Under the pieces are notes generated by a model. The model saw nothing but the letters and a program-made list of their open reading frames with translations, made no database searches and was not told the DNA's origin. Both the position numbers and the translations under genes were made by a program. A stretch of DNA of 40,277 nucleotides from an uncultured Candidatus Actinomarina sp. Its GTDB lineage: Bacteria; Actinomycetota; Acidimicrobiia; Actinomarinales; Actinomarinaceae. The DNA lies in NCBI GenBank assembly GCA_902510995.1, contig CABXDL010000010.1, positions 1 through 40,277 on the forward strand, written 5' to 3'. Below are positions 28,177 to 35,153 of this stretch, piece after piece. Every line of letters begins with the position of its first letter. Position 1 is the stretch's first letter.

Positions 28177-28637
28177 AAGTATTAATACCAGGATCATTTG
28201 ATCCTCCAACAAATGGACATATCGATGTTATTACTAGATGTTCAAAGGTATTTGATGAAGTGCTTGTTGGTGTAATTGTAAATCCATCAAAGGAATCATT
28301 ATTTTCTACAGATGTAAGGTCTGAAATGCTTTCAGAAATATTTAATAAAAAGAAAAATATAAATGTAAAGAGTTTTGAAGGCTTGCTTGTAGATTTTGCT
28401 AAAAAAAATAATGTAAATGCAATAGTCAAAGGCTTAAGAGCAATGACTGACTTTGATTACGAATTTCAAATGGCTCAAATGAATTTTAATTTAGCAGATT
28501 TTGAAACTATATTTATACCCGCATCACCAGAATATGGTTACGTCTCTAGTTCTTTGGTAAAAGAAATACATTCATACGGTGGAGATGTAAATGAATTAGT
28601 TCCAGATAATGTATTGAGAAGATTAAAAGATGACTGA
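28173..28637 (+). CDS. coaD: Phosphopantetheine adenylyltransferase
   Basis: Penultimate enzyme of CoA synthesis, making dephospho-CoA from 4'-phosphopantetheine and ATP. The nucleotidyltransferase motif GSFDPPTNGH is at 7-16, with the conserved His near 19 in the following helix. AIVKGLRAMTDFDYE and EYGYVSSSLVKEI (the SSxxKEI motif) are present. At 154 residues it matches the family. It overlaps rsmD by 4 bases and the sepIVA-like gene by 8. CoA supply is relevant to the many acyl-CoA enzymes in the window. Confidence 0.95.
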   Translation: MKVLIPGSFDPPTNGHIDVITRCSKVFDEVLVGVIVNPSKESLFSTDVRSEMLSEIFNKKKNINVKSFEGLLVDFAKKNNVNAIVKGLRAMTDFDYEFQMAQMNFNLADFETIFIPASPEYGYVSSSLVKEIHSYGGDVNELVPDNVLRRLKDD

Positions 28638-29136
28638 AAAAGAAAACTTTAATTTAGACGATGTTATTAGTGGTGAAAAGAAAATCCAGTATGTTGATAA
28701 ATTACAAGTACTTAGAGAAAAAATAAATTCAAGTGGCTTAATGAGCAGTAGGGCTAATAAAAAAGAACTTATTGAAATAGTTGAAAATTTAATTGACTTA
28801 ATGCCTGTCGAATTAAGAACAGCTCGTTGGTTAGTAAGAGAACAAGATACATTTTTAAACAAAGCTAGAGAAGAAGCTAGTGAAATTTTAAGTATAGCTA
28901 AGGTGGAGTCAGATAGATTGACATCTGACTCTTATGTTTTACAAGAAGCTGTTATTGAAGCTAATGCTCTCATTAAAAAAGCAGAAGATGAAGCTCAAGC
29001 ATATCGTGCACAAGTAGAAGATCAGATAGACTTAAAACTTACTGAAATTTTAAGTAAATTTGAACAAATTAATAATTTTATTGAAACTGAAAAAAATAGT
29101 TTACGTCAACCACGAAAAATAGTTGAACCTGAATAA
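28630..29136 (+). CDS. SepIVA-like (DivIVA-related) coiled-coil protein
   Basis: A 168-residue coiled-coil protein in the position and with the architecture of mycobacterial Rv2927c/SepIVA, which functions in division and polar growth. A short N-terminal helical module, LIEIVENLIDLMPVELRTA (residues ~47-65), resembles the start of SepIVA. It is followed by a long heptad region ~70-155 rich in Ala/Glu/Lys (AREEASEILSIAKVESDRL, KAEDEAQAYRAQVEDQID). No membrane helix is seen. It overlaps coaD by 8 bases and precedes DUF177-rpmF by 4. It is shorter than the mycobacterial protein, with fewer coil repeats. Function is by homology and synteny only. Confidence 0.75.
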   Translation: MTEKENFNLDDVISGEKKIQYVDKLQVLREKINSSGLMSSRANKKELIEIVENLIDLMPVELRTARWLVREQDTFLNKAREEASEILSIAKVESDRLTSDSYVLQEAVIEANALIKKAEDEAQAYRAQVEDQIDLKLTEILSKFEQINNFIETEKNSLRQPRKIVEPE

Positions 29137-29851: not shown

Positions 29852-30823
29852 ATGAGCACAATTGCTGTAGACGCAATGGGTGGAGATTCAGCTCCTAAAG
29901 AGATAGTAAAAGGTGCAATCTTAGCTAAAGAAAATGGTGTGGATGTAATACTTTCAGGAGACAAGACTCTTATTGAATCATATTTAGAAGGAGTTAAAAT
30001 ACCAGTTGTAGATTATCCCGAAGTAATTTCAATGGAGGATAATCCAGCTAGAGCAATACGTACTAAAAAAAATGCATCTATATTAGGTGCTTTACAATTA
30101 GTAAAAGAAAATAAAGCTGATGGAGTATTTTCAGCAGGTTCTACAGGAGCTACATTGGTTGGCTCTATTTCAATATTAGGAAAAAGCAAAGGTGTTCTGA
30201 GGCCTGCAATTGCAGCTGTATTACCTGGAATAGAAAGTGGCACTATCCTGCTTGATTCTGGATCCAGTTTAGATGTAAAACCAAAAGTACTTTTACAGTA
30301 TGGTGCTATGGGTTCAAAATTAGCAGAAATAATATTTGAAATTAATAATCCAAAAATTGGTTTATTAAATAACGGAGAGGAAGAGTCAAAAGGTAGAGAT
30401 ATAGAAAGGTCAGCTTATAAGTTATTAAAATCTTCAAATTTAAATTTTATTGGAAACATAGAAGGAAGGGATTTTGCAAACTCAAAGGCAGATGTATTTA
30501 TTACTGATGGATTTACTGGAAATATTGTATTAAAAACAATGGAAGGTACGGCAAAATTACAACAAAAACTAATAGCAAATGCATTAAAAGACAAACTATT
30601 TAAACCTTTGCTAATACCTGTAAAGAATGCAATGAAACCAGCTAAAGATAAATTAGACCCTGACAAAACAAACGCATCATACTTGCTTGGCGTAAATGGT
30701 TTAGTCATTATAGGACACGGCTCATCAACAGCTGAGGGTGTAAAGAACGCAATTATATATACAAACACAAGTGCAAAAAAAGGATTTATAAACAAATTTA
30801 CAAATACAATTAGTGAATTATGA
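29852..30823 (+). CDS. plsX: Phosphate acyltransferase PlsX
   Basis: Makes acyl-phosphate from acyl-ACP for phospholipid synthesis at the membrane surface. The N-terminus IAVDAMGGDSAPKEIVKGA is diagnostic. FSAGSTGATLVGS, LLDSGSSLDVKP, and FITDGFTGNIVLKTMEGTA are further family blocks. The final GSSTAEGVKNAI is also typical. The 323-residue length is normal. It overlaps rnc by 4 bases. The fabD/fabF/acpP genes often found next to plsX are not here. Confidence 0.95.
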   Translation: MSTIAVDAMGGDSAPKEIVKGAILAKENGVDVILSGDKTLIESYLEGVKIPVVDYPEVISMEDNPARAIRTKKNASILGALQLVKENKADGVFSAGSTGATLVGSISILGKSKGVLRPAIAAVLPGIESGTILLDSGSSLDVKPKVLLQYGAMGSKLAEIIFEINNPKIGLLNNGEEESKGRDIERSAYKLLKSSNLNFIGNIEGRDFANSKADVFITDGFTGNIVLKTMEGTAKLQQKLIANALKDKLFKPLLIPVKNAMKPAKDKLDPDKTNASYLLGVNGLVIIGHGSSTAEGVKNAIIYTNTSAKKGFINKFTNTISEL

Positions 30824-31497
30824 AAGACATAGATTTAAGTAAATTAGAAAAAACAATTGATTATAAATTTGAAAATATAAAATATTTAAAAATCGCTTTA
30901 ACACATAAATCATACTTAGATGAGAAATCAGAATACCTTTCAAATCAGAGATACGAATTTTTAGGAGATACAATATTAGATTACGATCTAACAATATATT
31001 TATTTAATAAATTTCCGGATTTAGATGAAGGTAATTTAACAAAAATAAGATCAAATGCAGTCGATCAAGAATCACTAGTTAAGTTAGGACATGAAATAAA
31101 TATTGGTGAGTATCTTTTTCTAAGTAAAGCTGAAGATGCAACAGGAGGCAGAAATAAAAAGTCAATTATTGAAGATGCAGTTGAAGCTTTGATTGCTGCT
31201 ATTTATTTTGATGGTGGACTCCAGAGTGTAAATAATTTTGTTTCAAAATATATTTATCCAAATATAAAAAAGTTATCTGAAGATCCAGGTAAAAAAGATT
31301 ATAAGACTCGTTTACAAGAACATTTTGCCAAGGTTGGAAAGAAAGTATCGTATGAAAACTCATCAACTGGGCCAGATCATTCTAAAGAATTCATTTCAAA
31401 CGTTTTATTGTCAGATGTAGTTATAGGAATTGGTAAAGGAAAATCAAAAAAAAGTGCTGAACAAATGGCAGCCAAAGATGCTTTATCAAAACAATAA
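30820..31497 (+). CDS. rnc: Ribonuclease III
   Basis: Double-strand-specific RNase for rRNA and mRNA processing. The signature stretch is NQRYEFLGDTILDYDL, containing the catalytic Glu and Asp of the LEFLGD motif, and the second acidic pair is in IEDAVEALIAAIYFDGG. The first Glu of the usual NERLEFLGD is Gln here, a residue reported as less critical than the other acidic ones. A double-stranded RNA-binding domain follows from ~155 to the end, with DYKTRLQEHF and SKKSAEQMAAKDAL. The 225-residue length is normal. The start overlaps plsX by 4 bases. Confidence 0.95.
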   Translation: MKDIDLSKLEKTIDYKFENIKYLKIALTHKSYLDEKSEYLSNQRYEFLGDTILDYDLTIYLFNKFPDLDEGNLTKIRSNAVDQESLVKLGHEINIGEYLFLSKAEDATGGRNKKSIIEDAVEALIAAIYFDGGLQSVNNFVSKYIYPNIKKLSEDPGKKDYKTRLQEHFAKVGKKVSYENSSTGPDHSKEFISNVLLSDVVIGIGKGKSKKSAEQMAAKDALSKQ

Positions 31498-31501
31498 ATA
31501 A

Positions 31502-32437
31502 ATGAATAAAATTGACACTATTGAAATTCAGCTATTAAGAAATAACCATATTGAATCTAGGCACAAAATATTAATAACTACAGATACAGATAAGAATGGT
31601 TTTGAATTTTTTCCTCGTTCAGCAATTAAACCATTTCAGATAATACCACTATTACACTTTGCAAAAAAAAATAATTTAACATTCGATAATGAAGAAATTG
31701 CAATTTTTGGTTCATCTCATTCCGGTCAAGAAGAACATGTAGATATTTTAAAAAAAATCTCAGCCAAATATGACATAAAATGGGAAGCAATATATTGCGC
31801 TCCACAGAGACCAATGCATATTAAAACTGCTGATGATTATATTTTAAAAAAGACACCTTTTACTAGTTTAAATAATAATTGCTCTGGGAAACATTTATCA
31901 ATGTTGTTATATTCAAAATTATTAGATATTGATAATTATAATTATCAAAATATTGAACATATTGTTCAACAAAATATACATAAATTCTTTAAAGAAATAT
32001 TTGAGTTAGATGAAATTAAATATGGTATTGATGGCTGTGGTCTCCCAGCAATTTATTTAAATTCTTATTCATTTTTAAAAGGTGTTAAAAATGTTTTAAA
32101 TTCAGAGTATAAAGATTTATGGCAATCTATATTTGATTCTTATAACAGCCATCCTAATTTGGTAGGAGGTGAAAATAGAACTGATACAAATATAATGTTA
32201 AATAGTTATAGCCCACTATTAGCAAAATCAGGAGCAGAAGGAGTATTGTTTGCAACAAATAATGAGTCATCTTTTTTGTTCAAATGTTCCGATGGTAACT
32301 TCCGAGCTGTTGATTTAGTTGCTACTGATGTACTTAATAAACAAAAATATATTAACGAAATTCCTTATACTAAATTAGTAGAAAATTATTCAAAAAATCT
32401 TCAAAACACAGAAGTATATTCATTCAATATCGAATAA
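31502..32437 (+). CDS. Class 3 (Rhizobium etli AnsA-type) L-asparaginase family protein
   Basis: Member of the asparaginase family typified by the R. etli thermolabile enzyme, unrelated to E. coli asparaginases. Conserved residues are Ser40 and Lys43 (RSAIKP), GSSHSGQ near 70-76, Cys127 and Lys130 in NNCSGKH, and Cys179 in DGCGLPA. The last three correspond to the zinc-binding Cys-Lys-Cys set of that enzyme. The expected reaction is asparagine to aspartate and ammonia. Length is 311, slightly below many homologues. It sits between rnc and smc, where mutM is often found in actinobacteria, 4 bases after rnc. Confidence 0.85.
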   Translation: MNKIDTIEIQLLRNNHIESRHKILITTDTDKNGFEFFPRSAIKPFQIIPLLHFAKKNNLTFDNEEIAIFGSSHSGQEEHVDILKKISAKYDIKWEAIYCAPQRPMHIKTADDYILKKTPFTSLNNNCSGKHLSMLLYSKLLDIDNYNYQNIEHIVQQNIHKFFKEIFELDEIKYGIDGCGLPAIYLNSYSFLKGVKNVLNSEYKDLWQSIFDSYNSHPNLVGGENRTDTNIMLNSYSPLLAKSGAEGVLFATNNESSFLFKCSDGNFRAVDLVATDVLNKQKYINEIPYTKLVENYSKNLQNTEVYSFNIE

Positions 32438-32501: not shown

Positions 32502-35153
32502 ATGTATTTAAAATCGGTCAATATTAATGGCTTTAAGTCATTTTCAGAAAATACAATAATTGATTTTACAAATAAAGTTAATGTTGTAGTTGGACCTAAT
32601 GGGTCAGGAAAATCAAATGTTGTTGATGCTATTTCATGGGTATTAGGAACTCAAAGCCCTGCTTCTTTAAGAACAAATAAAATGGAAGATGTAATTTTTG
32701 CAGGTACGGAAAAGCTAGCTCAAAAAGGTTTTGCAGAAGTAAATCTTAATTTTGATGTAGATGCTGAAAAATTTAATGGTACTGAAGAAATATCTATTGG
32801 AAGAAAATTATACAGAGACGGTCAATCTGAATATTTTATGAATGGTTTAAATTGCAGATTGCTTGATATACAAGAATTTTTAAGTGATGTTGGGATAGGG
32901 AGACAACAACACACAATAATTTCTCAAGGTCAAATTGCAGAAATATTGAACTCAAAACCAGAAGACCACAGAATAACTATTGAAGAAGCAGCAGGGATAT
33001 TACCTTTCAAATTAAAAAAAGATAAAGCTTTAAGAAGAATAGAATCTGGTGAAAAGGAAATAAAAAGGGCTAAAGACGTATTAAGAGAAATCAAAAAACA
33101 ATTAAAACCATTAAAAGAACAAGCTGAACAAGCAACAATACATGAAAAATCAATAAACGAATTAAAAAATTTAAAAATTAAATTAAATGTTTTAAAATAT
33201 AAAAAAATTATATCTAAAAATAAAAATATACAAGAAAATATTGCAGAAATAAATAAAGAATTAGAACATGTCAATAAATCAATAAAAAATCAAAAAAAAT
33301 TAAAAAATAATATTAATGATAATTTGGGTGAAAATATTTCATTAGGTTCTCTATTTAAAGATTTTTCAAATAATCTTTTTAATAATTCAGAAAAAATAAA
33401 GAATATTGCTCAAATTGCAAATGAACGTATAGATAATTTAGAACTCTCACAATTAAAGTATCAAAAGGAAAAAGATAACAATAAGAAAAAAATATTAGAT
33501 AATTCAAATACAGTATCTTCATTATCAAGTCAATTAATAATAAAAAAGAACAACCTTAAAGAAAAATCATTTAAGCTTGAAACTCTAAATAATGAATTAT
33601 TAGATCTAGTTAAAAAGCAATCTTTAAATATTGAAATAAATGAAGCATTAATTCAAAATGAAATTAAAAATATAAATGAGTATTTAGGTGAAATACAAAC
33701 AAATTATAAAAATAACACAAAAAATATAAATAATTTAATTGAAGATAAAAAAACATCTGAAGAATTAATAACAAATCATGAAAACGTTTTAAAAATTAAT
33801 GATGTCAATAATAAAAGTTTTGAAGATATTAAAAATAAAATATTTTCAGTTATTAATAGGGAAATGCATAATATAAAACAAACAAATGAAAAAGATTTAA
33901 ATATAACAGAATCTAAAAAAGTTATTCTAGACCAAAAAACCGAACAATTAAAATTAATAACTGATAAAGATGATTTTAAAGAAGAATTAAGAATACAAAA
34001 AAATAAAATTGAATTAGAAATTCAAACAATTGAAAAAGAAGTATCAACTCTTTCAAACCAAATAATATCGATTACTGAAAAAATTAAATACTTAAACGAT
34101 GACAATAAAAAATTAAGTGACAGTTTGAGTATTAATAATGTAAGTACATATATTGAAAAAATTAATAAATTGAATGAAATTTCTGTTTCTACTTCAAAAA
34201 TATTTAAACAACTAAAGGATTCTTCTGAATTACTAAGAGAATCTGCAGAAAAATTTGATAACAAGTACGGTGATAACAATAAGAATATTCAAAAAATAGA
34301 AAGTCAAATCGAAAACTTTAATAGTAAATATTACCAACTAAATGATCAAAAAAATAAATTTCTTATACAAGAATCAGAATATTCAAATGAGAGTCTTACT
34401 CATTATTCATATTTAACAAATATTGAAGGTCTAACTCTTGATGAAATTAATAATTATGAAGTAGAGAACGAGGAAGAAAGTGATCTTATAATAAACATAA
34501 AAAAATGTGAGAGTACAATTGAAAAAATTGGTGTAGTAAATTATCTAGCAAAAGAAGATTATAATTCTTTATCTAAAAGACACGAAGAAATACAAAATTC
34601 TATTGAAGATTTATTATTAACTAAAAAAGAACTCAATTCTCATATAAAACAAATAGAAAATGAAATTGTATTTAGAATTGATTCCTCCTTTAATTCAATC
34701 TCTGTTAATTTTTCTGAAATATTTGAAAAATTGTTTCCCGGAGGTGTTGGTTCACTTCAGTTAACAAATAAAGATAATTTGTTAGAAACAGGTATTGAAA
34801 TTAGTGTTCAACCACGAGGAAAAAAAGTTAAAAAACTTAGTTTATTATCAGGAGGGGAAAGGTCACTAGCTGCTATCGCATTTTTATTTGCTATATTCAA
34901 ATCATTCCCAAGTCCTTTTTATATATTAGATGAAGTTGAAGCAGCTCTTGACGATGCTAATTTACATAGAATGATTGATTTACTTGACTATCTAAAGAAT
35001 GACGCACAATTTGTTATTGTTACACACCAACAACAAACTATGCATGCAGGCGATATTTTATATGGGGTTACTATGGAACCAGGATCTGGATCTAGAATAT
35101 TTATAAAGACAAAGGAAGATTTTGAGTCTTTAGTATCAAAGGAAGTGAATTAA
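32502..35153 (+). CDS. smc: SMC chromosome-segregation ATPase without a recognisable hinge
   Basis: Structural-maintenance-of-chromosomes ATPase. Walker A is GPNGSGKS at 31-38. The Q-loop/lever region GIGRQQHTIISQGQIAEILN is at 131-150, with EEAAGI at 161-166. The C-terminal head has the signature LLSGGERS (781-788) and Walker B YILDEVEAALDD (807-818), and the H-loop is IVTHQQQ. Between the heads (about 175-720) the sequence is Lys/Asn/Glu/Ile-rich coiled coil with only about six glycines in 475 residues. I cannot find the ~150-residue globular hinge expected mid-way, nor a Rad50-type CxxC zinc hook. The total of 883 residues is well below the usual ~1150-1200. The rnc-smc neighbourhood marks it as the chromosomal smc. 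ScpA/ScpB genes are not in the window. Head assignment is certain; absence of a hinge is by eye. Confidence 0.9.
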   Translation: MYLKSVNINGFKSFSENTIIDFTNKVNVVVGPNGSGKSNVVDAISWVLGTQSPASLRTNKMEDVIFAGTEKLAQKGFAEVNLNFDVDAEKFNGTEEISIGRKLYRDGQSEYFMNGLNCRLLDIQEFLSDVGIGRQQHTIISQGQIAEILNSKPEDHRITIEEAAGILPFKLKKDKALRRIESGEKEIKRAKDVLREIKKQLKPLKEQAEQATIHEKSINELKNLKIKLNVLKYKKIISKNKNIQENIAEINKELEHVNKSIKNQKKLKNNINDNLGENISLGSLFKDFSNNLFNNSEKIKNIAQIANERIDNLELSQLKYQKEKDNNKKKILDNSNTVSSLSSQLIIKKNNLKEKSFKLETLNNELLDLVKKQSLNIEINEALIQNEIKNINEYLGEIQTNYKNNTKNINNLIEDKKTSEELITNHENVLKINDVNNKSFEDIKNKIFSVINREMHNIKQTNEKDLNITESKKVILDQKTEQLKLITDKDDFKEELRIQKNKIELEIQTIEKEVSTLSNQIISITEKIKYLNDDNKKLSDSLSINNVSTYIEKINKLNEISVSTSKIFKQLKDSSELLRESAEKFDNKYGDNNKNIQKIESQIENFNSKYYQLNDQKNKFLIQESEYSNESLTHYSYLTNIEGLTLDEINNYEVENEEESDLIINIKKCESTIEKIGVVNYLAKEDYNSLSKRHEEIQNSIEDLLLTKKELNSHIKQIENEIVFRIDSSFNSISVNFSEIFEKLFPGGVGSLQLTNKDNLLETGIEISVQPRGKKVKKLSLLSGGERSLAAIAFLFAIFKSFPSPFYILDEVEAALDDANLHRMIDLLDYLKNDAQFVIVTHQQQTMHAGDILYGVTMEPGSGSRIFIKTKEDFESLVSKEVN

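Follow-up and report, generated by a model that had tools for sequence, protein, structure and literature searches.

The 40,277-nucleotide window analysed here (assembly GCA_902510995.1, contig CABXDL010000010.1), which derives from an uncultured Candidatus Actinomarina sp. of the class Acidimicrobiia, carries an smc gene encoding an 883-residue structural maintenance of chromosomes (SMC) ATPase that has no hinge domain. Upstream of it lie, in order, recG, rsmD, coaD, a gene for a coiled-coil protein, yceD, plsX, rnc and an asparaginase II family gene, and a cytidine deaminase gene follows downstream (Table 1). The chromosomal smc of actinobacteria usually sits in a closely similar neighbourhood, and the gene is therefore an orthologue and not an added paralogue, in agreement with an earlier note on this DNA that had recognised it as chromosomal and placed it in the rnc-smc locus. 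A search of the same genome at E ≤ 1e-20 returned one SMC match, and the 883-residue gene is apparently its only chromosomal smc.

The same note had described two complete halves of the ATPase head, and the open reading frame (ORF) indeed encodes all of the expected motifs, namely Walker A (GPNGSGKSN, residues 31-39), EEAAGI (residues 161-166), LLSGGERS and ILDEVEAALDD. The protein scores 622.7 bits against TIGR02168 (bacterial SMC, SMC_prok_B), above the cut-off of 567.35, Pfam matches it to SMC_N, and solved Smc heads align with both head halves along their length. Median omega is approximately 0.03 in the N-terminal and 0.01 in the C-terminal half of the head, 0.13-0.20 in the arms and 0.28, the highest value of the gene, at the arm tip. 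Purifying selection on the intact heads is very strong; since omega is low throughout, the whole protein is maintained with nothing decaying, and these values rule out reading the gene as a pseudogene.

The Pfam hinge profile PF06470 (SMC_hinge) has no match in the protein even at E ≤ 10, nor does it match anywhere in the 0.98-Mb assembly, with 10 of 14 control genomes matched. Because a Pfam miss can reflect mere divergence, as in the SMC of the class relative G046, we built our own hidden Markov model (HMM) from the hinges of 40 canonical SMCs; with filters off (--max), its best E-value among 36 distinct Actinomarina SMCs was 0.22. HHalign assigned a probability of 0.1% to the hinge profile against the Actinomarina middle, while the same profile found the hinge in two class relatives at 99.3 and 99.9%. 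None of the 42 genomes of the genus encodes a hinge domain elsewhere or as a separate protein, and a CxxC hook is absent from residues 200-735 in all 37 species aligned. Glycine and proline together make up at most 8.3% of the richest 60-residue window in Actinomarina SMCs, against at least 10% (median 17%) in canonical SMCs. The SMC of G046 (1115 residues; L134, G046:C1:1571500-1576500; family f11) has a Gly-rich, globular-looking middle that both PF06470 and HHalign miss; its hinge appears to be strongly diverged, its richest 60-residue window reaches 20% Gly+Pro and, in the head tree, its branch is very long.

At 883 residues, the protein falls about 300 residues below the 1150-1200 typical of the class, and profile alignment equates this loss with the hinge plus roughly 55-80 residues of hinge-proximal coil on each side. 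The two Actinomarina arms align with canonical SMC arms in HHalign (99.6% and 97.5%), and AlphaFold predicts two long antiparallel coiled-coil arm strands. A tip model of residues 340-540 (201 residues, alignment from 35 species) contains only helices and one five-residue turn at 433-437, with a predicted local distance difference test (pLDDT) score of 91.8 and a predicted template modelling (pTM) score of 0.68. The full-length model agrees with this hairpin turn; confidence in its head is poor, the alignment being shallow. We thus looked for both a hinge-profile match and a globular mid-domain and found neither. The earlier note's observations of a missing hinge, a missing hook and a deficit of some 300 residues all held up, and its coiled-coil middle is indeed coil, though interrupted by breaks at approximately residues 273-280, 375-376, 433-437, 486-488, 544-547, 587-593 and 642-658. 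The breaks at 273-280 and 587-593 lie at about equal distances from the turn and at similar heights above the head, and may pair as an elbow-like element. The conserved island at 366-395 is a candidate contact surface. Covariation, at an effective depth of only 15 sequences, gives a weak local signal for a turn at about 436-439 and, further down, a register shift of about 25 residues; the centre of conservation symmetry falls at residue 451. A role of the tip as a DNA-binding patch was rejected, since it lacks strong, conserved positive charge (+1.2 per 20 residues at 421-440). A fold search with the tip model returned only helical hairpins, including those of soluble chemoreceptors (template modelling score about 0.5, E about 0.05, not significant), which is a resemblance of shape only. 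Chemoreceptor hairpins pack as four-helix bundles.

Table 1. Features of the Actinomarina smc gene, its product and its surroundings. Positions are those of the window except for the parS-like site, whose position is given by contig (C1) of the same genome (G000).
Feature	Position	Strand	Remarks
smc (P0001)	32502..35153	+	883 aa, hinge-less SMC ATPase; ORF translation, profile match, relatives
N-terminal half of ATPase head	32502..32996	+	residues 1-165; Walker A at 32592-32618
N-terminal arm helices	32997..33797	+	residues 166-432; near-canonical up to about canonical residue 445
N-arm break, elbow-like	33318..33341	+	residues 273-280; conserved, Gly-containing, LGENISLG region
Conserved island near tip	33597..33686	+	residues 366-395, KKQSASxEVNEALLE; rich in hydrophobics, weak heptad pattern
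Predicted hairpin turn, arm tip	33798..33812	+	residues 433-437; position of the hinge in other SMCs
C-terminal arm helices	33813..34631	+	residues 438-710
Conserved C-arm island	34032..34121	+	residues 511-540, SNQLVSSxExIKxLTxEN; apparent partner of 366-395
C-arm break	34260..34280	+	residues 587-593
Joint-like C-arm region	34425..34475	+	residues 642-658; putative SMC 'joint', by position
C-terminal half of ATPase head	34707..35126	+	residues 736-875; LLSGGERS about 780-788; Walker B/D-loop 34917-34955
rnc, RNase III	30820..31497	+	upstream neighbour, marks the orthologous smc locus
plsX	29852..30823	+	same locus as smc
Asparaginase II family gene	31502-32437		between rnc and smc
Coiled-coil protein	28630-29136		between coaD and yceD; weak DivIVA/Wag31 match
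parS-like site, own genome	G000:C1:22617-22632

Comparison with close relatives, which the earlier note had proposed, indicates that this architecture is general. The closest relatives are oceanic single cells and metagenome-assembled genomes of Candidatus Actinomarina, Actinomarinales and OCS155, and every complete SMC among them is short (881-888 residues) and hinge-less. Across 37 Actinomarina and Actinomarinales species the SMCs fill 883 alignment columns with zero internal gaps, while overall identity can be as low as 53% and, once the nearest relatives are set aside, the region around the tip retains about 24-35%; the same gapless architecture in 37 species excludes an assembly or frameshift artefact. 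A hinge match was obtained in 0 of 42 genomes of the genus versus 327 of 353 genomes elsewhere in the class, the one class that our survey of hinge loss covers, and among the remaining 26 are fragmented assemblies and divergent hinges like that of G046. In a midpoint-rooted tree of the heads with moderate deep support, Actinomarina forms a single clade (100/100) whose neighbours are other Acidimicrobiia, and Bacillota branch separately. The simplest history is a single hinge loss on the Actinomarinales stem, the deeper placement being moderately supported.

The partners of a bacterial condensin have been kept. In the genome from which the window derives, scpB sits right at the beginning of contig C6 (G000:C6:192-665), and because scpA precedes scpB in congeners, the contig end cuts off the position of scpA and its loss from this genome is apparent only. 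ScpA was found in 24 of 34 congeners (for example L135, G013:C12:36073-36639, and L137), which answers the question, raised by the earlier note, of whether scpA and scpB exist here. In each of the 24 congeners with a match, PF02616 aligns to ScpA from profile position 24-31 onwards, as opposed to position 1 in 21 of 21 class relatives, and to judge from these alignments the N-terminus of Actinomarina ScpA has diverged in step with Smc. The N-terminal part of ScpA binds the SMC neck, and its canonical GPLDLLL stretch has been replaced in Actinomarina. ParB was detected in 40 of 42 genomes of the genus and a parS-like palindrome likewise in 40 of 42, mostly as a single site 0.9-1.4 kb from parB; bacteria commonly have more parS sites per genome than this.

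By descent, the Actinomarina SMC is a hinge-less variant of SMC_prok_B and not a canonical member. With canonical Smc-ScpAB (B. subtilis; TIGR02168) it shares heads, necks, arms, partner genes, ParB, parS and locus, and it differs in the absence of the hinge, in arms that are about 55-80 residues shorter per strand and in the diverged ScpA N-terminus. A monophyletic cluster of 'hinge-less' SMCs, abundant in ocean metagenomes, was reported in June 2025 (Environ Microbiome, PMC12153180); it lies near the base of actinobacterial SMCs, lacks CxxC and has no co-occurring regular SMC, and its authors left undecided whether it represents an unknown lineage that lost the hinge. That cluster and the Actinomarina SMC have in common an SMC head, an antiparallel coil without hinge or CxxC, an origin in marine Actinobacteria and the lack of a second SMC, and the Actinomarina smc, matched by the description in every testable feature, very probably belongs to this published OM-RGC cluster. 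Many of our loci come from single-cell genomes with AG- names, as in the GORG collection screened in PMC12153180, a likeness of names only. The hinge-less variant itself is thus not new; added here are its bearer (Candidatus Actinomarinales, genus-wide), the orthology of the locus, the retained ScpAB-ParB-parS set, the fixed length and a map of the deletion. Our literature search, whose coverage left out most subscription papers and preprints, found no further report of natural hinge-less SMCs.

On balance, we favour the view that this is a functional Smc-ScpAB condensin loaded by ParB at parS, that the hinge was lost once on the Actinomarinales stem and that distal contact, if made, occurs via helices. 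Under this model, the hinge and about 55-80 residues of adjoining coil per side would have been deleted in one event on the stem of the lineage, leaving each monomer as a single antiparallel coiled-coil arm that ends in a bare helical hairpin. The heads would engage on ATP and be bridged by ScpA with ScpB as in other Smc-ScpAB complexes, and ParB would load the complex at parS. Any distal contact between arms would arise from helix packing, either at the tip or at 366-395 with approximately 511-540, in the manner of a four-helix bundle, and the arms could still serve a loop-extruding or DNA-clamping machine as its rigid levers or tweezers. In B. subtilis, replacing the Smc hinge with the Rad50 zinc hook permits normal growth in rich medium, and the authors describe the fold of the dimerisation domain as irrelevant (PMC5344682). 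Because Smc can work with an unrelated dimerisation domain, hinge loss in Actinomarina is less paradoxical than it may seem. The engineered Smc(Zh) and mini-Smc proteins of that study likewise show that the hinge is dispensable as a fold and that arms can be shortened to certain lengths; they differ in being engineered and in keeping a known dimerisation module, the zinc hook, whereas the Actinomarina Smc has none that is recognisable.

Several points weigh against this model. The AlphaFold predictions come from a shallow alignment of one genus and from the monomer only, with poor confidence for the full-length head. Conservation is lowest, and omega highest, in the tip (residues 396-510), which speaks against a strongly specific contact at precisely that place, and the share of hydrophobic residues there is that of an ordinary two-stranded coil. 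Among hinge-bearing truncations of B. subtilis Smc, arms of 253-267 residues were functional and arms of 270-320 non-functional (PMC5344682). The Actinomarina arm, at about 275-285 residues with an undefined arm/tip boundary, would by analogy fall in the non-functional range, unless part of the tip serves as a dimerisation module.

Some of the same observations would suit a condensin without any distal junction, in which the arm tips stay unjoined and the two monomers are kept together only by ScpA-ScpB and by the ATP-dependent engagement of their heads; the complex would then be an open clamp or tweezers in place of a closed tripartite ring. The protein shows no dedicated dimerisation element, conservation is poorest at the tip, ScpA and ScpB are kept, and it is the neck-binding part of ScpA that has been re-shaped in the genus. 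We regard this as possible, though a good deal short of probable, because arm length is constant to the residue in 37 species, which is unexpected for free ends, and B. subtilis tolerated a different dimerisation domain, not none. Moreover, distal joining of the arms is the rule in other well-characterised SMC, MukB and Rad50 complexes, and MukB has a hinge, albeit a small one. PMC12153180 remarks that MukBEF functions with no hinge domain, which is at odds with this last point.

A junction made in trans, by another protein that binds both arm tips in place of the hinge, could use the conserved islands at 366-395 and 511-540 below the tip as a docking surface. We consider it improbable, given that no hinge domain occurs in the 42 genomes and that there is no candidate tip-joining gene beside smc or scpAB.

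More doubtful still is a different function, either as a repair ATPase akin to Rad50 or RecN or as a paralogue beside a canonical SMC. RecN combines an SMC-like head with a coil-only middle and no hinge, and Rad50/SbcC pairs a head with an antiparallel coil and likewise has no SMC hinge. Both a changed function and paralogy were raised in PMC12153180. Yet each genome has a single smc match, the locus is the canonical rnc-smc one, and scpA, scpB, parB and parS are retained. In contrast to the TIGR02168 score, the NCBIfam Rad50 and SbcC models give 32-73 bits against cut-offs of 478-1087 and the recN model 35.6 bits against 407.85; the protein also lacks the CxxC hook of Rad50/SbcC, and its coil is far longer than that of RecN.

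Finally, of the earlier note's two alternatives, arms that dimerise in a new way may be correct, but a hinge diverged beyond recognition, for which the SMC of G046 offers a precedent, is highly improbable, since the prediction for the 201 central residues is a simple hairpin of helices with a single five-residue turn (pLDDT 92), leaving no room for a hinge of about 170 residues, and Gly+Pro never exceeds 8.3% where G046 reaches 20%.

Whether or not the arms touch, we think it quite probable that a natural, ParB-loaded Smc-ScpAB here organises a whole chromosome without a hinge ever joining its arms, either as an open, tweezers-like loop extruder or through a new, bare coiled-coil junction. A persistent question in loop extrusion is whether SMC motors need a hinge, be it to lock the dimer, to gate DNA or to bind it, and nature has apparently made the hinge deletion in a whole abundant marine lineage of tiny bacteria while keeping ScpA, ScpB, ParB and usually one parS. 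The 883-residue, fixed-arm Smc is well suited to testing this: if it extrudes loops, models in which the hinge must open or contact DNA do not hold generally. Our analysis also answers the question of lineage left by PMC12153180 and speaks against paralogy and against a change of function. Elsewhere at the locus, the coiled-coil protein encoded between coaD and yceD may, by its position, be a SepIVA-like cell-division protein.
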